A stretch of DNA of 24,406 nt from a virus (IMGVR_UViG_3300031702_000047:1-24406), one strand, 5' to 3'. Counted from the first letter of the stretch, positions 1 through 11,099 are shown. Program-made: numbers and translations. The notes: generated by a model not told the origin, from the sequence alone.

Positions 1-1179
1 AAGAACACTCACATGACCCATATCGAAGATAAGGTCATCTACGGTGGGGTCAAGGGCACACGCGAAGCAATCAATGCTCTACGCGAACTCCGTGATGTGT
101 TAGCAGGTAAAGGCAAAGCAAACCTATCTACTAAGTGGGATGGTGCCCCTGCTATATTCGCAGGTACCGATCCTAGTGACGGCAAGTTCTTTGTGGCAAA
201 GAAGGGTATCTTCAATAAGAACCCCCAGATCTATAAGACTGCCGCTGATTGTGATGAGTTCCTATCTGGAGACCTCGCAGTCAAGATGAAGGACGCATTG
301 AAGTATTTACCTGAACTGGGTATCCAAGGTGTTATCCAAGGTGACTTCCTGTTCGGAGCAGGTGATGTTAAAACCAAAACAATAGAGGGTACGAAGTATA
401 CAACCTTCCACCCCAATACTATTGTATATGCTATACCTTTCGAGCAGTCTAAGTTAGTACGAGACGCGAAAATCGGTATAGTGTGGCACACTACATATAA
501 GGGTAAAGACTTTGAAAACATGAGCGCATCTTATGGTGTAGATGTCTCTAAACTGAAACAAAGTAAGAATGTCTGGAGTCAAGACGCAATGTTGCGTTCT
601 GTTGATGCTACCATGACACAAAAAGAAACGGAGCAAGTAAATGACTACTTATCAAAGATTGGTAAACTATTTAACCAAATTGCGGGATCGACTCTTAGAG
701 TTCTTGAATCAAACCCCACCCTTGCCGGAACCATTGAAACCTACGGTAACACCCTCGTCAGACAAGGCACCTACATCCAAGACCCCAAAGCGCACACGCG
801 CTCCCTCATCGCGTACATCCAAGGGAAGTACCAAAAAGAAATCGACAAACGCAAAACCGAGAAAGGCAAAAGCGTCCAAGTCGCAAAACTCGAAGAAGTA
901 ATGAAGTTCTTCTCTCCGCAGAACCGAGCATCTTTGGAAAAGATGTTCGAAATGCAGAAGTTGATCGTTCTAGCAAAACTGAAACTTATAAATAAACTTA
1001 ACAGTTTAAAGAAAATAGACACATTCGTTAGGACGCGTCAAGGTTACAAGGTCACTGGCGAAGAAGGATATGTGGCAATCGATAAACTTGGTGGTGATGC
1101 TGTGAAACTTGTTGATCGTATGGAGTTCTCATACAACAACTTTTCACCCGATATACTAAAGGGTTGGGAGAAATCTTAA
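1..1179 (+). CDS. DUF6267-type phage protein with ligase-like motifs (5' partial)
   Basis: The frame is open from base 1 and the first ATG (base 13) has no ribosome binding site in the 12 bases before it. From memory, relatives continue upstream through this point, so I treat the gene as 5' truncated. Numbering from the ATG, it shows motifs in the order of covalent nucleotidyltransferases and ligases: K41-W-D-G44 (motif I-like), a KKGIF segment near 63-67, IQGDFLF at 108-114 (motif III-like), EGYV at 351-354 (motif IV-like) and AVKLVDR at 363-369 (motif V-like). A Lys-rich helical stretch (about 205-335) lies between the halves. The family match is by recognition; the ligase-like activity is inference. 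It precedes head-associated genes and is probably expressed late. Confidence 0.75.
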   Translation, partial: KNTHMTHIEDKVIYGGVKGTREAINALRELRDVLAGKGKANLSTKWDGAPAIFAGTDPSDGKFFVAKKGIFNKNPQIYKTAADCDEFLSGDLAVKMKDALKYLPELGIQGVIQGDFLFGAGDVKTKTIEGTKYTTFHPNTIVYAIPFEQSKLVRDAKIGIVWHTTYKGKDFENMSASYGVDVSKLKQSKNVWSQDAMLRSVDATMTQKETEQVNDYLSKIGKLFNQIAGSTLRVLESNPTLAGTIETYGNTLVRQGTYIQDPKAHTRSLIAYIQGKYQKEIDKRKTEKGKSVQVAKLEEVMKFFSPQNRASLEKMFEMQKLIVLAKLKLINKLNSLKKIDTFVRTRQGYKVTGEEGYVAIDKLGGDAVKLVDRMEFSYNNFSPDILKGWEKS

Positions 1180-1213: not shown

Positions 1214-1606
1214 GTGGCAGATAAACCGCTTAGATTTAAAGAGTTTGTGGAGGTCGAAGAATCTCCTGACGAAGCACTAAACATGACGCAACGTCTTGCG
1301 CGTGGTCGTACCTTCAAGAAGAACAAAGCAAAGATTGCTATGGGTCGCAAACGTGCGTCTCGTAAGATAGCATCTATGGATACCCTCAAGAAACGTTCTC
1401 GCAAAGCGGCACGAACCGTACTCCTAAAGAAAATGACCAAAGACGTGCCCAAGGGTGAGTTGTCATTGTCTCGTCGCCAAGATATAGAGAAGCGATTAGA
1501 GAAGAAGAAAGGGATCATCGACAAGATGGCAAAGAAGTTGTTGCCACAAGTTCGTAAGAAAGAGATGATGAAGAAGAAGGGACAAGGATCTAATAATGCC
1601 AATTAA
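1214..1606 (+). CDS. Small basic head-associated protein (putative internal/structural)
   Basis: A 130-residue, strongly basic protein starting at GTG, with AGAGGA 8 bases upstream. The N-terminus FKEFVEVEES resembles the short capsid-targeting leader of T4 internal head proteins, and VEE|S (14-17) fits the T4 prohead-protease pattern. The rest is helical and very rich in Lys/Arg (about 35-75 and 95-125), suggesting DNA contact inside the head. It overlaps the next gene by 11 bases, so the two are probably translationally coupled. It is a conserved type in marine T4-like phages with no known activity. The head role is inference from the leader, charge and neighbours. Confidence 0.7.
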   Translation: MADKPLRFKEFVEVEESPDEALNMTQRLARGRTFKKNKAKIAMGRKRASRKIASMDTLKKRSRKAARTVLLKKMTKDVPKGELSLSRRQDIEKRLEKKKGIIDKMAKKLLPQVRKKEMMKKKGQGSNNAN

Positions 1607-3311
1607 GAATTTCTCCTCGTATTTGATCGAAGAGAATAAAGAAGTGTACTTCACCTTTGGTCGTATGAATCCTCCTACGATTGGTCACGGTAAGGTGATG
1701 GATGTACTCGCGTCCAAGTCAGGTAAGTCTGACTATAAAGTATACCTGTCGCAGTCAGTGAACCCTAAGAAGGATCCACTGACCTATGCTGATAAGGTTA
1801 AACATACAAGAAAGATGTTTCCAAAACACGCACGTCAAGTAATGTTAGACAAGAACGTCAGAAGCGTGTTCGACATCGCAGTCAAACTATATGACCAAGG
1901 TTACACTAAGGTCAATATGGTTGTGGGCGCAGACCGTATTCGTGAGTTCGAAGTACTGTTAGCGAAGTACAATGGAACTAAAGCACGTCACGGTTTCTAT
2001 AAGTTTCAGAAGATCAGTATCATATCGGCAGGTCAAAGAGATCCCGATGCTACTGGTGTTGAAGGTATGTCTGCGTCTAAGCAACGAGACAATGCCTCAA
2101 AGAATGACTACACCACGTTCTCCCAAGGTGTACCCAAAGGAATGTCCGATGCAGATACACGGAAGTTGTTCAATGATGTTCGGAATGGAATGGGTCTAAA
2201 GGAAGAGCATCAATTCTCAAGACACATACAGTTAGAGACAGTATCCGAGACGCGTGAAGCATACGTCCAAGGGTCTCTGTTTGCTGTAGGTGATGAAGTA
2301 GTAATCAAAGATACGGACGAGTTGGCAACTGTTGCGGTACTAGGTACCAACTATGTTATCATCGAATCAGACGGTAAGAAGATGCGCAAGTGGTTGGATG
2401 CCGTTGAACTAGTAGAAGGTAAGACTGGTGCCCAACGATTAACCAACCGATTAAAGAAGTCTGGTGTTGATCTTGATAAACGTGCCAAGGAACGTGCCGC
2501 AAGTCATGCCGCGCTGAAGAAGAAGTATGCTTCCGAAGATGCCGATGATAAGTTTGGTAGGAAGAAAGGTATGGGGTTTCGCGCCCACAGTACTGCAATC
2601 GAAGAAGACGTATCACAGAAAGAACTGAATGACCTAGAGAAGTTTGCGGATCGTTTGTTAAACAAGTTTGATGTTGACATCGAATTCACACGTCACTTCG
2701 CTGATCGTATGAATGACAAGCGTAACAAACCTGCTATTACTATTGCCGAGTTACAACGTCTGTTCAAGAAGATGGCAGACAACAAGGGTAAGAAGATTAA
2801 GAAGCACGGTAACTCAGAGGCAATCCTAAAGGATATGCAGTCTGACCTCAACCTGCCTGTCGTGATCAACTGGAAGAACGGTGAGTTCGAAGTTGTTAAC
2901 AAAACAATAATGCGCAAGAAAGCATTCAAGTCACCTGATCCCGAACTCAAGTATGAAGGAGTTGAATTGGACGAGAATTGGTTTACTGATTGGGTTGCAG
3001 GGTTAGGTGCTAAGTCTGTACAGAAGTCTGACTATGCTAAAGCGGCAAAGTGGGTTGAGGCAGAGATCAAGAAGTCTAAGGGTAGACACGGAGCAGACTA
3101 CTACGCACAAGAACTTATCCGTAAGTCTGGTGCTAAGATGAACCGTAAGCAGATTGTGTCATTGGTTTCTACAACCGAAGCAGTTGATCATATGGCAAAG
3201 GCAGATAAGAAGATAGATAAAGAAGTCGAAGCAGATAAGAAGAAGCATGACCGTATCTTAGATCGTGCTAGACTGGCACGAGCAAGACAAAAGAATAGGT
3301 CAACTAAATGA
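1596..3311 (+). CDS. Multidomain head protein with N-terminal nucleotidyltransferase
   Basis: A 571-residue modular protein. Residues 1-12 (leader ending LIE|E) look like a T4-type capsid-targeting peptide. Residues 17-200 form a HIGH-superfamily nucleotidyltransferase: FGRMNPPTIGH (21-31) is the nucleotide-binding loop, VVGADR (109-114) a conserved core strand, and GMSASKQRDNA (157-167) the ISSTxxR-like motif. A small beta, KOW-like segment follows (about 224-270), ending in LVE|G (272-275). A basic module (275-337) ends in IEE|D. A module around 364-450 starts FTRHFADRMNDKRNK, as in other marine phage proteins, and LDE|N (458-461) separates the C-terminal basic part. Substrate unknown. The cleavage sites are inferred from motif only. 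Confidence 0.75.
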   Translation: MPIKNFSSYLIEENKEVYFTFGRMNPPTIGHGKVMDVLASKSGKSDYKVYLSQSVNPKKDPLTYADKVKHTRKMFPKHARQVMLDKNVRSVFDIAVKLYDQGYTKVNMVVGADRIREFEVLLAKYNGTKARHGFYKFQKISIISAGQRDPDATGVEGMSASKQRDNASKNDYTTFSQGVPKGMSDADTRKLFNDVRNGMGLKEEHQFSRHIQLETVSETREAYVQGSLFAVGDEVVIKDTDELATVAVLGTNYVIIESDGKKMRKWLDAVELVEGKTGAQRLTNRLKKSGVDLDKRAKERAASHAALKKKYASEDADDKFGRKKGMGFRAHSTAIEEDVSQKELNDLEKFADRLLNKFDVDIEFTRHFADRMNDKRNKPAITIAELQRLFKKMADNKGKKIKKHGNSEAILKDMQSDLNLPVVINWKNGEFEVVNKTIMRKKAFKSPDPELKYEGVELDENWFTDWVAGLGAKSVQKSDYAKAAKWVEAEIKKSKGRHGADYYAQELIRKSGAKMNRKQIVSLVSTTEAVDHMAKADKKIDKEVEADKKKHDRILDRARLARARQKNRSTK

Positions 3312-3574
3312 TTAATTTTAAGAAATACCTTGACGAAGGTCGGTATTCCATGTATGATGTAATAGAAGAAGAAGGTGAGGGACTCTCCGGTAAGTCTAAG
3401 AAGTCTGGCATCTCAGTTGACGTATTAAAGAAAGTATACAATCGCGGTGTTGCGGCATGGAAGACAGGTCATCGTCCGGGCACCACTCCACAACAATGGG
3501 GTTACGCAAGAGTTAATGCCTTTATTGTTAAGAAGAAGAAAGGTAATCTAAACCACGACAAGGATCTAGCATAA
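3308..3574 (+). CDS. DUF5824-like small protein
   Basis: An 88-residue protein whose ATG overlaps the previous stop (ATGA). The core around residues 44-75, with RGVAAWKTGHRPGTTPQQWG and then YARVNAF, matches what I recall as DUF5824, a small phage domain of unknown function. The N-terminus MINFKKYLDE|G is a short amphipathic leader ending in an LxE site, like the T4 capsid-targeting sequence, followed by an acidic linker (19-26). This suggests the DUF5824 domain is head cargo released after processing. Function unknown; family call fairly sure, packaging inferred. Confidence 0.75.
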   Translation: MINFKKYLDEGRYSMYDVIEEEGEGLSGKSKKSGISVDVLKKVYNRGVAAWKTGHRPGTTPQQWGYARVNAFIVKKKKGNLNHDKDLA

Positions 3575-3575
3575 C

Positions 3576-4790
3576 ATGAGAACGTTTAAAGATATACGAG
3601 AGAGTGCCAAAGGTATGGTAGGCGGTTTCTCAGTAGAGATACCCAAGCAAACTATCTCTGGTAAGACTATAGGTGGCGGTAAGAATGGGATCTTTGTTAA
3701 GGCAAAGACTGCTCGTCAAGCAATCAGCATGGCGGCAAAACGTCTGGGTGTTGATTTCAAGATGCTTAAAGTCGGTAAGGTAATTAAAGAAAGTGTCGAG
3801 ACATTAGACGAAGCATATCAGCAATTCTTGGATAAGTCACCTAGTAACTGGGGTGAGGAAAAGGTAGTCGCTTACGGAACCAAGAAAGGTTACAAAGTGA
3901 TCGGTGTATGTGGTCACGGTAAGATAGATGGTATTGTACTGTTCGGTCTTGATACCTCAGATAAGGCATATGTTGGTAAGGAAGCAAAGGTCAAGACTGG
4001 TCAAACAGTATTCCGTTATGCTACTCGTAATAGTATGGCAGGTGACATCTTTCCTTTAGTTAAGATTGATGTTAAACGCGGTCTACTATATAACCTATCA
4101 CAGAAGTCAAGTGATGGCGAGATTGACCACGCAGAGTTTGAAACTAAGAGTTCTAAGTTGCGTTACCTACGTCTTCACAAGGGTGCTAACCTTCGTGACA
4201 TTACTGGGTTCGATCCCGGTTTTGGTTCAATGAAAGAATCTACTCTCATCGAAGCGAAACAGACTCCGCTAGAACAAATGCAGGATATCGTTAAGAACAA
4301 GCAAGCAAAGAAGATCGGTGGTGTTATGGTCGATATGTTTACTGCTAGTACTATCACTCAGGCATACGCTAAAGTTAACCCTGCTATCAAAGCGAAGATG
4401 GAAAAGTCTAGTCTAGATATGCTTGTAGGTCTTGCGCAGAAGATGATGGGTATGAAAGAATCTGTCCAAGAAGGAACTCTTGACGAAGCAATGGGCAAGT
4501 TAAATGCCAAAGGCGAGATCGAGATGACTACCAAGAACTACAGCAAAGTTCACAAAGATTATAAGACCAAGATCAAAGGCACTCCTTATGCTATGCAGAT
4601 AGATCCTAAGACTGGTGGTTCTGCCTTGTTCCCTGTCAAGTTCATCAAAGAATCTGCGAACCTCGAAGAAGGAAAAATGAAAGAGTTTCATGCTATGGTC
4701 AAGAAGGGTATGACTGCCGCACAGATTGCTAAGAAGATTGGCATGAAAGAGAAAGATGTTGCGGAGTTTATGAAAGGTATGAAAGTGTGA
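3576..4790 (+). CDS. Modular head polyprotein with repeated KES...LxE linkers
   Basis: A 404-residue protein made of five short modules. The leader MRTFKDIRE|S is T4 capsid-targeting-like. Each later module boundary has the same type of linker, a KES triplet followed by an LxE site: KESVETLDE|A (71-80), KESTLIE|A (220-227), KESVQEGTLDE|A (294-305) and KESANLEE|G (358-366). The intervening modules do not resemble one another; module 4 (305-357) and the final HTH-like helix pair (366-404, TAAQIAKKIGM) look like pieces seen in other marine phage proteins. I infer a polyprotein cut by the prohead protease into several small internal head peptides. No enzymatic motif is visible. AAGGA lies about 10 bases before the ATG. 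Confidence 0.7.
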   Translation: MRTFKDIRESAKGMVGGFSVEIPKQTISGKTIGGGKNGIFVKAKTARQAISMAAKRLGVDFKMLKVGKVIKESVETLDEAYQQFLDKSPSNWGEEKVVAYGTKKGYKVIGVCGHGKIDGIVLFGLDTSDKAYVGKEAKVKTGQTVFRYATRNSMAGDIFPLVKIDVKRGLLYNLSQKSSDGEIDHAEFETKSSKLRYLRLHKGANLRDITGFDPGFGSMKESTLIEAKQTPLEQMQDIVKNKQAKKIGGVMVDMFTASTITQAYAKVNPAIKAKMEKSSLDMLVGLAQKMMGMKESVQEGTLDEAMGKLNAKGEIEMTTKNYSKVHKDYKTKIKGTPYAMQIDPKTGGSALFPVKFIKESANLEEGKMKEFHAMVKKGMTAAQIAKKIGMKEKDVAEFMKGMKV

Positions 4791-5137
4791 AGAGTTTCAA
4801 AGATGTGGAACGCATTGATGAACACTGCGAATGTACAGATCTCTATGAGGACTTGATGATTACTGAGTCCGAGTATCAGGGTAAGAAGGTTAAGTTAAAC
4901 GATCCAATTCGTACATCCGAGAACAAGAATAAGAAGTTCAAGGTGTATGTGAAGAACGATCAAGGTAACGTAGTTGTTGTACGTTTCGGAGATCCCAATA
5001 TGTCGATCAAACGAGACGATCCGGCAAGACGGAAGTCGTTTCGAGCAAGGCACGATTGTGCGAATCCCGGGCCAAAGCATAAGGCACGGTATTGGAGTTG
5101 CTATCAATGGCGCGGAAGTGCCAAGGTAGACAGTTAA
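4787..5137 (+). CDS. DUF6321-like domain protein, head-associated
   Basis: 116 residues. The GTG start overlaps the previous TGA (GTGA), with AAAGG upstream. The C-terminal core contains FGDPNMSIKRDD (68-79) and RRKSFRARHDC (81-91), then NPGPKHKARYWSC (93-105). This Cys/His/Arg/Trp-rich domain is common in marine T4-like phages and I recall it as DUF6321. The N-terminus MKSFKDVERIDE|H again looks like a capsid-targeting leader, with a second possible site ITE|S (25-28) just before the domain. The conserved Cys and His suggest metal binding or a compact fold. Function unknown. It is the last gene before the late promoters at 5143-5165. Confidence 0.7.
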   Translation: MKSFKDVERIDEHCECTDLYEDLMITESEYQGKKVKLNDPIRTSENKNKKFKVYVKNDQGNVVVVRFGDPNMSIKRDDPARRKSFRARHDCANPGPKHKARYWSCYQWRGSAKVDS

Positions 5138-5142
5138 ATAAG

Positions 5143-5165
5143 TATAAATAGATGTTATATAAATA
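5143..5165 (+). promoter_or_regulatory. Tandem T4-type late promoters
   Basis: Two exact TATAAATA octamers sit at 5143-5150 and 5158-5165, 15 bases apart, in the short gap between 5137 and the ATG at 5194. TATAAATA is the -10-only promoter read in T4 by the gp55 sigma factor with the sliding clamp. By T4 geometry, transcripts would start near 5156 and 5171. No -35 element is expected or seen. They would drive the coiled-coil/membrane gene and the acidic 301-residue head gene late in infection. Confidence 0.7.
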
Positions 5166-5193
5166 ACATTATATCCAATGGGAACACTGAGCA

Positions 5194-5472
5194 ATGGCAC
5201 AAACAGACGATGCCCGACTAGATCGGATCGAACAGAAAATCGACAAGTTAGCAGATGCTATGGTATCACTTGCTCGTACCGAGGAAAAGATTCTTGCGAT
5301 GGAAGAGAACCATCGTAATCATTACGAACGTATGAATAGATTCTCACAAAAGTTAGACGCAATAGAAATTAAAGTAAACGAAAATGCTCACACCGTGAGT
5401 ATCATTAATAAAGTTACGTTTGTCGGGGTTGCCGCTATTATCGGTGCCATCGTTAAAACGTTCTGGTTCTAG
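5194..5472 (+). CDS. Coiled-coil plus C-terminal membrane protein (XhlA/holin-like candidate)
   Basis: 92 residues. Residues 5-68 are a predicted coiled coil with heptad-like spacing (LDRIEQKIDKLADAM onward), followed by one hydrophobic segment at about 73-92 ending in TFWF. This layout, cytoplasmic coiled coil with a C-terminal anchor, resembles XhlA-type lysis accessory proteins and some phage holins; it could instead be a tail or membrane-anchoring protein. It lies directly downstream of tandem late promoters, which fits lysis timing. The endolysin itself is 14 kb away at 19301. The ribosome site is weak (GGAA about 10 bases upstream). The gene is sure; the role is not. Confidence 0.65.
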   Translation: MAQTDDARLDRIEQKIDKLADAMVSLARTEEKILAMEENHRNHYERMNRFSQKLDAIEIKVNENAHTVSIINKVTFVGVAAIIGAIVKTFWF

Positions 5473-5484
5473 GAGACCGTAAGC

Positions 5485-6390
5485 ATGAAAGGTAAAGATA
5501 TGAGTAAGACAATGGAGGCATATTTGTCTATGGTCTCCGAAGCAAAAGCAAAGTTGGATCCAGTAGACGATAAGGCAAACGATAAGAAGTTCAAGGATCG
5601 TAAAGACAAAGACATCGATAATGATGGCGATGTTGATAGTTCTGATGAGTTCTTACATAAGAAGCGTAAGGCAACTGATGACGCGATTGACGGTGGAGAC
5701 AAACCTGCCGACAATGCTAAACCTAAGAAGGGTGTTAATCCTTTCAAGAAGGAAGAAGTTGAGATTGACGAAGCGCGTCAGATGAAAGATCCTAAGAAGG
5801 ACTCTATGGTCACTAAGGGTGGTAAGACTATCGTAATCGACAAGTCTAAAGAGAAAGAGTTCCTTTCGAAAGGTTGGACTCTATCCGAAGCACAGGATGA
5901 TACCGAAGCAGAGAAAGACGATAAGAAACCTTTCCCACCTAAGAAGAAGAAAGAGAAGGGTGGAGCAGACGATGGTGAGACCGAAGCAGAAGCAGAAGAT
6001 GATGACGAAGCACCTGCTGAAACTGATGGTGAACCTGACACCGATGATCCTAAGAAGAAGAAGAAGTCTGGTAACCCTAAGACTGATGACGGTACCGCAG
6101 AGATCTCTAAGATTGAAAGCACTAGTCACAAAGCATTCATTGAGATGTGGTCACAGATCGAAGAAGCAGTTCAAGAAGGACGGCAAGGTGGAACCGCACA
6201 CACTCACGCACCTGCCGAGAAGATCGATGACAAAGAGTCACCGAAGGGTAAAGAGTTCATTGCCAAGCATAAGATCGATAAGAAAGAAGTCGAAGATCTT
6301 CAGGGTGTTGAGAAACCCAAAGAAGTTAAGTTAAAGAAAGAAGCGAGTGAGTTCGAAGTAATTCGTGCCCTTCTATCTGGCAAAATCTAG
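5485..6390 (+). CDS. Charged EF-hand-containing head/scaffold-like protein
   Basis: 301 residues, extremely charged, with Lys runs and Asp/Glu runs (about 138-205). An EF-hand-like loop is at 43-54 (D43, D45, D47, G48, D49, D51, D54), suggesting Ca2+ binding. Prohead-protease-type sites occur at VSE|A (17-20), IDE|A (94-97), LSE|A (133-136) and IEE|A (225-228). An ATG at 5500 with AAAGG before it would give an N-terminus MSKTMEAYLSMVSE|A, close in length to a T4 capsid-targeting leader; the ATG at 5485 has a good AGGAG, so both starts are possible. Charge and sites resemble prohead core or internal proteins. It ends just before the terminator at 6412. Confidence 0.7.
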   Translation: MKGKDMSKTMEAYLSMVSEAKAKLDPVDDKANDKKFKDRKDKDIDNDGDVDSSDEFLHKKRKATDDAIDGGDKPADNAKPKKGVNPFKKEEVEIDEARQMKDPKKDSMVTKGGKTIVIDKSKEKEFLSKGWTLSEAQDDTEAEKDDKKPFPPKKKKEKGGADDGETEAEAEDDDEAPAETDGEPDTDDPKKKKKSGNPKTDDGTAEISKIESTSHKAFIEMWSQIEEAVQEGRQGGTAHTHAPAEKIDDKESPKGKEFIAKHKIDKKEVEDLQGVEKPKEVKLKKEASEFEVIRALLSGKI

Positions 6391-10337: not shown

Positions 10338-10948
10338 CTCTACAAGACAAATATGACCTAGTGTTTCTTAACGAGATCCGTGGAATCTCCCTAGAAGGTC
10401 ATATGGAATTGACTGCTAACACCGAGAAGACAATGGTAGAACTCTTGGATAAAGTTAAACCTAAGAGAATGTTAGAGATTGGTTTCAATGCAGGACATAG
10501 TGCCTTTATGTGGCAGACCCTTGGTACCACTCTAGAATACTTTCATGCAGTTGATATATGCCAATACCAATACACCAAACCATGTTCTCAGATAATGCAG
10601 ACAATATTCCCTGAGTTTAAGTTTGGCGAGATGGACTCTAAGAACCTTGGTGAGACACGCAGTCTTATAGAATATGACACAGTATTCATTGACGGTGACC
10701 ATACCACGGAAGGATTCACCGCAGACCTCCATTCGTGTATGAATGGAAAGGTAGACAACATCATAGTAGATGACTGGGACTTGTCCAGAGGAGTTAGACA
10801 TACTCTTCAGGATGCGGTCAATGACGTTAACAATCCTTACCAGATCACAGGATTCTACAAGTACGATAACGATAATATAGTTAGGGGTGGTAGAACAAAA
10901 TCTGTCATCGCACTAGTACAAAGGATAATACCAGATGATACCGTTTAA
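10334..10948 (+). CDS. Class I SAM-dependent methyltransferase (Methyltransf_24-like)
   Basis: 204 residues. The SAM-binding motif I is MLEIGFNAGHSAF (46-58), the acidic end of strand 2 is HAVDIC (71-76), FIDGDHTTEG (118-127) is the hallmark metal/acceptor motif of this subfamily, and IIVDDW (143-148) follows. The fold and motifs resemble small O- or N-methyltransferases such as the CmcI and macrocin types, which often act on sugars or small molecules. Substrate unknown; the operon's glycosyltransferase makes a sugar acceptor plausible. Its 3' end overlaps the next small gene by 14 bases. Confidence 0.8.
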   Translation: MTLQDKYDLVFLNEIRGISLEGHMELTANTEKTMVELLDKVKPKRMLEIGFNAGHSAFMWQTLGTTLEYFHAVDICQYQYTKPCSQIMQTIFPEFKFGEMDSKNLGETRSLIEYDTVFIDGDHTTEGFTADLHSCMNGKVDNIIVDDWDLSRGVRHTLQDAVNDVNNPYQITGFYKYDNDNIVRGGRTKSVIALVQRIIPDDTV

Positions 10949-11099
10949 AAGATGGACAGAAGACACCACTACCGCATCTGTGGTAGGTACAGGTGATGAC
11001 AATGAGACTGTAGTCATGCGCAAGAAGTACGACAAGAAGAACAAACGTAAAGACCAACTTGACGTGTTAAAGAGATTTATTAAAAAGACACAGAAATAG
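10935..11099 (+). CDS. 54-residue basic protein
   Basis: A short gene overlapping the methyltransferase end, with AGGAT 8 bases before its ATG. The protein begins MIPFKRWTED, then has a GTGDDNETVVM strand (18-28) and a Lys/Arg-rich tail (29-54, KKYDKKNKRKDQLDV). I recall similar tiny phage proteins but no function. It could bind nucleic acid or be packaged. It stops one base before the -35 of the promoter at 11101. Confidence 0.6.
   Translation: MIPFKRWTEDTTTASVVGTGDDNETVVMRKKYDKKNKRKDQLDVLKRFIKKTQK

Follow-up and report, generated by a model that had tools for sequence, protein, structure and literature searches.

Predicted strings of head-packaged protein modules behind T4-type capsid-targeting leaders in a fragment of a marine T4-like phage

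What is the purpose of a run of phage genes that begin with the short leader by which T4 internal proteins enter the head, and that then continue as chains of separate modules? The question is raised by the block at positions 1214-6390 of IMGVR_UViG_3300031702_000047, which is listed as a viral contig; this 24.4 kb fragment (24,406 nucleotides) as a whole is referred to here as the window. The nearest annotated relative of the window is Phage C48C1 (Kyanoviridae; L001 below), and Pelagibacter phage HTVC008M, Methylophilales phage Melnitz, and the T4-like cyanophages are more distant. In marine relatives, the equivalent block is flanked by replication genes on one side and primase/ribonucleotide reductase on the other; in the record of S-CREM2, its neighbors are a late sigma factor and primase. 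Our analysis indicates that the block likely encodes tagged polyproteins that the prohead takes up and the gp21 protease cleaves.

In T4, gp21 cleaves after L/I-x-E, and the leader of internal protein IPIII uses positions 4 and 7 for targeting and positions 8 and 10 for processing; in that phage, the leader was shown to suffice for sending a foreign protein into heads (PMC9026906). The IPIII leader MKTYQEFIAE, used here as the reference, was confirmed in T4-like records. Six of the seven genes at 1214-6390 begin with a leader of this type, in which an aromatic-x-x-hydrophobic pattern is followed by a hydrophobic-x-Glu site (Table 1). When judged by the IPIII spacing, an independent criterion derived from genetics (positions 4, 7, 8, and 10), three of the six (1596, 3308, and 5485) fit exactly, compared with 0/32 other window genes (p=0.0024). 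Genes 1214, 3576, and 4787 fit more loosely; exact spacing is found in some homologues of 1214 and 4787 (e.g., FKQFVSE and FKQYIDE in C48C1), and leaders of further 1214 homologues read FKQFISE (L045) and FKDMVSE (L074). The loose criterion of an earlier note on this DNA ([LIV]xE[AGSEH], with the Glu at residues 8-22) picks out 6/6 block genes and 5/32 others (p=1.7e-4), a post hoc count because the criterion was taken from these same genes. That note had described six consecutive leader-bearing genes; all six open reading frames and their leaders are present, but they are not strictly consecutive because the holin-like gene at 5194-5472 interrupts them. A seventh leader belongs to the DUF6267 gene directly upstream of the block and was read as MIEFDQHIKE from the open reading frame at 5373 of L015, one of two contigs (L014 and L015) nearly identical to the window.

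The leaders are conserved among homologues. In non-redundant homologue N-termini from IMG/VR, with other stretches of the same proteins as background (2-8%), the T4-spaced motif was found in 61% of the DUF6267 family (22/36 vs 2%), 57% of the 1596 family (28/49 vs 3%), 46% of the 3308 family, and 38% of the 5485 family (9/24 vs 2%). Five non-block control families (5194, 6522, 7426, 9744, and 11510; 13-49 N-termini each) carried it at 0-5%, and a sixth (13496) in one of nine N-termini. Leaders and sites are conserved while the cargo behind them varies, a check that the earlier note had suggested.

Its proposal that the block is head cargo gains further from relatives in which virions have been analyzed, in CsCl-purified (cesium chloride) or otherwise purified samples (S-SCSM1, S-CREM2, S-SM1, and S-SZBM1). 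The virion proteome of S-SCSM1 (L207) is published (PMC9602691), and the GenBank record of this phage labels 7 of the 10 counterpart block genes, the NMNAT included, as virion proteins. Outside the structural clusters, the sole other virion-annotated gene is RegA (P=3e-10), and the replication genes adjoining the block are not so annotated. Of the S-CREM2 proteins, gp6 (SAM hydrolase), gp12, gp13, gp14 (kinase), gp136, and gp154 (cytidylyltransferase) have T4-spaced leaders, and mass spectrometry (MS) detected every one of them in virions (PMC10665884, Table 3). Among non-structural proteins, leader and detection are strongly associated (Fisher p=1e-4); outside the tail and neck clusters, four further carriers went undetected. 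The kinase of S-CRM01, cited as a virion protein in PMC10665884, begins MISFDQFLSE, and the cytidylyltransferase is also reported in virions of S-SM1 (PMC3037559) and S-SZBM1 (PMC9146016). The leaders offer an explanation for the packaging of these proteins.

The protease is likewise present in relatives. Both C48C1 and S-CREM2 encode a Peptidase_S77 of the gp21 family, beside a gp22-type scaffold gene. The major capsid proteins of C48C1, S-CREM2, and S-SCSM1 carry FLTE/T, LLTE/A, and FLAE/A (a slash marks the predicted cut here and below), at what we take to be the cut position of T4 gp23. Taken together, the block proteins are very probably packaged in the head, a conclusion that is well supported for the homologues.

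Behind the leaders, and beyond what the earlier note described, many of these proteins are strings of modules with internal sites. Gene 3576 comprises a leader and five modules of 63, 142, 69, 55, and 39 residues, and each of its four linkers holds two hydrophobic-x-Glu sites. Its relatives used here are metagenomic viral contigs from IMG/VR, tblastn against annotated phages having returned no match; among them, the modules occur in other orders and in other proteins, and module 2 stands directly behind a leader in L035 and L024 (MKTIKELMTE/AYQQ).

Two tests addressed the sites at module joints. The module-start test considered only homologues with dissimilar upstream sequence, excluded the window, and counted [LIVMF]xE at exactly positions -3 to -1. 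The motif was present in 60 of 165 contexts, compared with a per-position background of 2.2%. The best modules were module 5 of gene 3576 (6/6 independent contexts), its module 2 (6/7), the FTxHF module of gene 1596 (10/15), module 3 of gene 3576 (5/8), and the DUF5754-like module of gene 4787 (5/9). The basic module of gene 1214 is directly preceded by Glu in 28/32 dissimilar upstream contexts and by [LIVMF]xE in 12/32, and the site of DUF6267 is offset by one residue. In the breakpoint test, homology breakpoints were placed automatically in 132 dereplicated proteins and compared with a circular-shift null: [LIVMF]xE occurred near breakpoints at 0.313 vs 0.212 under the shift (p=1.6e-7), and Glu was the only clearly enriched residue of 14 tested. 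Breakpoint z-scores from non-dereplicated contexts, inflated by relatedness, were not used.

Gene 1596 records a recent exchange. Over 7.8 kb, L014 and L015 match the window at 98-99% identity, except at 2408-2598, where unrelated sequence takes its place; L015 holds a different module in this slot. The edges of the swap lie no more than about 3 residues from LVE/ (residue 274) and IEE/ (residue 337), and the FTxHF module that follows the cassette is identical in protein sequence. One module of the S-SCSM1 virion protein gp89 shares 79% identity with the C-terminus of the S-RIM2 cytidylyltransferase.

These observations suggest the following course. The N-terminal capsid-targeting leader would bind the prohead core of a T4-like marine myovirus. 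It ends in a hydrophobic-x-Glu site, at which the prohead protease, of the gp21 family, would remove it during head maturation. Because the leader sits on a string of linked modules, one leader could load the whole string into the prohead. The linkers between independent modules would hold one or two more sites of the same type, at which the string could be cut into separate modules; the freed modules would stay with the DNA and, by analogy with T4, might enter the next host. As each module carries its own site, modules could be gained, lost, or swapped with packaging and release unspoiled. We judge internal cutting somewhat more probable than its opposite.

Several observations weigh against this course. 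The T4 spacing is weak in homologues of 1214 (12%), 4787 (21%), and 3576 (7%), where looser variants such as FKELREE and FSELRES occur. The module boundaries were initially set by eye from the window sequence, and the EF-hand-like module of gene 5485 has a site at its start in only 1 of 28 contexts. A family-level version of the breakpoint test (single linkage; sign test, 22 families) was not significant; one component took in most contexts there, and the dereplicated circular-shift and module-start tests were used instead. Breakpoints are enriched for the reversed motif, Glu-x-hydrophobic, as well (difference 0.074), so Glu-rich linker composition explains part of the signal. The virion evidence comes from homologues, and the gp21 of the window phage lies outside the fragment. 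The cyanophage literature, in the portions available, shows no semi-tryptic peptides marking cleavage. Moreover, the S-CREM2 authors allow for contamination by co-purified abundant, non-packaged proteins (PMC10665884), and those of S-SCSM1 note that proteins may merely have stayed in suspension (PMC9602691).

The alternative that survives best, albeit as an unlikely one, is that the proteins are tagged and packaged as described, but cutting is confined to the leader and the mature cargo keeps its multidomain form; the internal motifs would then be a side effect of flexible linkers rich in Glu, which mark recombination points. The enrichment of the reversed motif fits this alternative, as does T4 cargo (Alt and the internal proteins), which is trimmed at its termini rather than chopped. 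Linker codons are also somewhat more similar (0.56) than codon usage predicts (0.43), as expected if linkers were shared DNA as well. However, the site is held in exact register despite unrelated upstream sequence, including in leader-fused copies where it is supplied by the leader, and the linkers of gene 3576 carry paired sites. In addition, synonymous codons and the middle residue vary in the linkers while hydrophobic-x-Glu is kept; a DNA-level recombination site was set aside as the cause of linker conservation on the ground of this codon variation, but, codons being partly shared, it may contribute. Considerably less probable is a role in the prohead core or scaffold, as for T4 gp22, gp67, and gp68, with multiple cutting by gp21, expulsion of most fragments, and no part in the next host. 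It is true that gp21 cuts T4 core proteins into several fragments (PMC9026906) and that the low-complexity, charged 5485 and basic 1214 products would suit a core, but the gp22-type scaffold gene is separate in C48C1 and S-CREM2, the modules include an NMNAT/PPAT enzyme fold, kinase and SAM hydrolase genes of S-CREM2 bear leaders, and block products of relatives are found in purified virions. That these are ordinary early or metabolic proteins with coincidental leaders and sites, detected through contamination, is hardly credible: the location between replication genes and ribonucleotide reductase and the co-purification mentioned by the S-CREM2 authors would fit, but the T4-spaced leaders are conserved and associated with MS detection, and the S-SCSM1 virion list takes in most of the block and none of the adjoining replication genes.

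The remaining features of the locus bear on what the tagged strings may carry (Table 1). The nucleotidyltransferase and DUF5824 domains announced in the earlier note were recovered, the former in gene 1596 by PHROG match and fold and the latter in gene 3308 by Pfam match; no DUF6321 match was found in the window for the DUF6321-like domain that it had also listed. The AlphaFold2 model of the 1596 nucleotidylyltransferase part has a predicted local distance difference test score (pLDDT) of mostly 80-90. Its best Foldseek match is the PPAT 1o6b (E=8e-5), NMNATs are matched as well, target template modeling scores for the PPAT and NMNAT matches are about 0.5-0.7, and the sequence contains an HxGH-like PPTIGH motif. 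Motif and predicted fold thus point to a nucleotidylyltransferase of the NMNAT/PPAT superfamily, for which NAD repair against host defense may be speculated. Pfam lists DUF6267 as a family of unknown function; KWDG, EGxV, and KxVxR are invariant in 30 diverse sequences, a set that matches the signature of ATP-dependent ligase-type (covalent) nucleotidyltransferases, making DUF6267 a putative member of that class. Sequence profiles linked neither 1596 nor DUF6267 to PDB entries, solved ligases included in the case of DUF6267. The FTxHF module gave no Pfam, PDB profile, or significant fold match, and its AlphaFold2 model is weak (pLDDT 63); an assignment to BECR/RelE-type nuclease toxins, suggested by eye from FTxHFxxRxxDxRN, was rejected on these grounds.

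Table 1. Features of the window (all coordinates are window positions; CTS, capsid-targeting sequence; a slash marks the predicted cut)
Feature	Position	Strand	Details
DUF6267 gene	13..1179	+	start outside window (window opens at KNTHMTHIED); Pfam PF19782 E=3e-99
Leader of gene 1214	1214..1273	+	MADKPLRFKEFVEVEESPDE; site MADKPLRFKEFVEVEE/S; loose CTS match
Very basic module of 1214, to stop	1274..1606	+	small protein
Leader of gene 1596	1596..1631	+	MPIKNFSSYLIE/E; exact T4 CTS spacing
Nucleotidylyltransferase (NMNAT/PPAT-like) module of 1596	1632..2204	+	phrog_395 1.7e-64
Linker of 1596	2205..2249	+	sites LKE/ and VSE/; pLDDT<50 at residues 210-215
Small beta-rich module of 1596 (residues 219-274)	2250..2417	+	conserved beside nucleotidyltransferase in relatives
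Exchanged cassette of 1596	2408..2598	+	unrelated DNA in L014/L015
FTxHF module of 1596 (residues 338-446)	2607..2933	+	invariant D24 F27 T28 H30 F31 R34 D37 R39 N40
C-terminal helical module of 1596 behind GVELDE/, plus tail	2976..3311	+	model and sequence comparison
Leader of gene 3308	3308..3337	+	MINFKKYLDE/G; exact T4 CTS spacing
DUF5824 module of 3308	3338..3574	+	Pfam PF19141 9.9e-20
Leader of gene 3576	3576..3602	+	MRTFKDIRE/S; loose
Module 1 of 3576 (residues 10-72)	3603..3791	+	recurs behind unrelated sequence in L066, L190
Linker 1 of 3576	3792..3812	+	VIKE/SVETLDE/A
Module 2 of 3576 (AYQQFLDK..., residues 80-221)	3813..4238	+	
Linker 2 of 3576	4239..4253	+	SMKE/STLIE/A
Module 3 of 3576 (AKQTPLEQMQ..., residues 227-295)	4254..4460	+	leader-fused in L199
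Linker 3 of 3576	4461..4487	+	GMKE/SVQEGTLDE/A
Module 4 of 3576 (AMGKLNAKGE..., residues 305-359)	4488..4652	+	sequence comparison
Linker 4 of 3576	4653..4670	+	FIKE/SANLEE/G
Module 5 of 3576 (GKMKEFHAM..., residues 366-404), to stop	4671..4790	+	
Leader of gene 4787	4787..4822	+	MKSFKDVERIDE/H; loose
DUF5754-like module of 4787, behind LMITE/S	4868..5137	+	Pfam PF19058 5.7e-5, below gathering cut-off
XhlA/holin-like small membrane gene, 92 aa, without leader	5194..5472	+	sits inside block
Leader of gene 5485	5485..5541	+	MKGKDMSKTMEAYLSMVSE/A, ending MEAYLSMVSE/A; T4 CTS spacing (Y..MV.E)
EF-hand/dockerin-like acidic module of 5485	5551..5694	+	DKDIDNDGDVDSSDE; phrog_22379; recurs in many loci
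ARQMKDPKKD... module of 5485	5773..5889	+	between IDE/ and LSE/; leader-fused in L056 (FKELRLTE/ARQM)
Possible further small tagged protein, outside finding	10935..11099	+	MIPFKRWTED/TTTASVV; leader-like start

Some of these modules are found joined in longer proteins elsewhere. The 1214 module occurs fused within a 602-aa protein of phage phiM12. In Melnitz (L004), DUF5824 (internal, after an LDE site) and the DUF5754-like module (C-terminal) are parts of one 650-aa protein; in the window, they lie in separate genes.

A number of side observations concern leaders and virion proteins. The 54-aa protein at window positions 10935-11099, MIPFKRWTEDTTTASVVGTGDDNETVV, has a leader-like start that is conserved in relatives (MKTFNKFSED...). 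In C48C1, the annotated start of the cytidyltransferase (12064) misses an in-frame upstream start at L001:11998 that gives the leader MIKNFSQYLLE, and a gene outside the block at L001:5837 has the leader MKFKTYLNE and may encode more cargo. The S-SCSM1 virion protein gp93 (L207:6481-6690) has a CTS-like C-terminus, TFKEFLEYIE-stop, which recalls the C-terminal processing of T4 Alt. A copy of the N-terminal arm of the major capsid protein (GGFTGxxAxxGPxAGYDPLM) is present in small proteins at L207:7976-8161 (S-SCSM1 gp97), L006:12343-13236 (S-CREM2 gp160), and L005:17037-17579; such proteins are detected in S-SCSM1 and S-CREM2 virions and possibly mimic the capsid lattice. Unrelated leader-bearing proteins, namely S-CREM2 gp12 and gp14 (L007), S-SCSM1 gp91 (L207), and the S-RIM2 cytidylyltransferase (L005:11761-14826), have in common a short module of glycine and aromatic residues close behind the leader (A..LGLxYxGxGyWxDxxTGkxvxrt); it possibly binds the head. 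S-CREM2 gp12 (L007:7704-10313) is annotated as Cas9, but it has no Pfam match at E<0.01 and its match is phrog_3561, a family of unknown function, which makes the published virion Cas9 doubtful.

For enzymes reported in cyanophage virions (NMNAT, kinases, and SAM hydrolase), packaging or contamination has been left open, and a readable leader makes a direct test possible. Leaders also allow candidate cargo to be picked out from sequence in a virus group that is among the commonest in the ocean, and foreign cargo could be loaded into these phages with leaders as tags. If internal cutting is true, modular strings would join single tagged proteins as a form of T4-type internal protein, and a general route to unknown early-acting phage effectors would open. 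More broadly, the head-maturation protease of marine T4-like phages may serve as a polyprotein protease: behind one leader, interchangeable effector modules would be loaded as a chain, cut apart in the head, and co-injected, and exchange at cleavage sites would rapidly change which modules are present and in what order; on this wider idea, we consider the case evenly balanced.

A review of T4 has already put forward the leader as a means for T4-like phages to load diverse proteins (PMC9026906); the new element here is module strings with sites at the joints. Searches of the open-license literature turned up no account of leaders of this kind in cyanophages, nor any work on these domain families in phages. 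The block proteins resemble T4 IPI, IPII, IPIII, and Alt in having an N-terminal leader of 10-20 residues with the pattern aromatic-x-x-aromatic-hydrophobic-x-Glu and a gp21-family site, in belonging to a T4-like phage, and in having homologues in virions. Unlike those single, end-trimmed proteins, however, many are swappable module strings with predicted sites between modules, and their cargo families have no detected relation to the T4 internal proteins or Alt. With T4 gp22, gp67, and gp68, they share several predicted gp21 sites on one chain; in contrast to these, the scaffold genes are separate, and the products of relatives are found in purified virions, an enzyme fold among them. Ejection proteins of the giant phages SPN3US and phiKZ are likewise head proteins that a related protease cuts on the C-terminal side of Glu, and they are thought to be delivered to the host (PMC5694885, PMC10052503); as described in the available portions of these reports, they mostly have long propeptides rather than short T4-type leaders and are not presented as module strings. 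Finally, the NMNAT/cytidylyltransferase in virions of S-SCSM1, S-CREM2, S-SM1, and S-SZBM1 is homologous to the nucleotidyltransferase of the block. Published accounts of it, in the parts available, do not decide between packaging and contamination and do not discuss a leader with a protease site, whereas the leader is proposed here as its packaging route.

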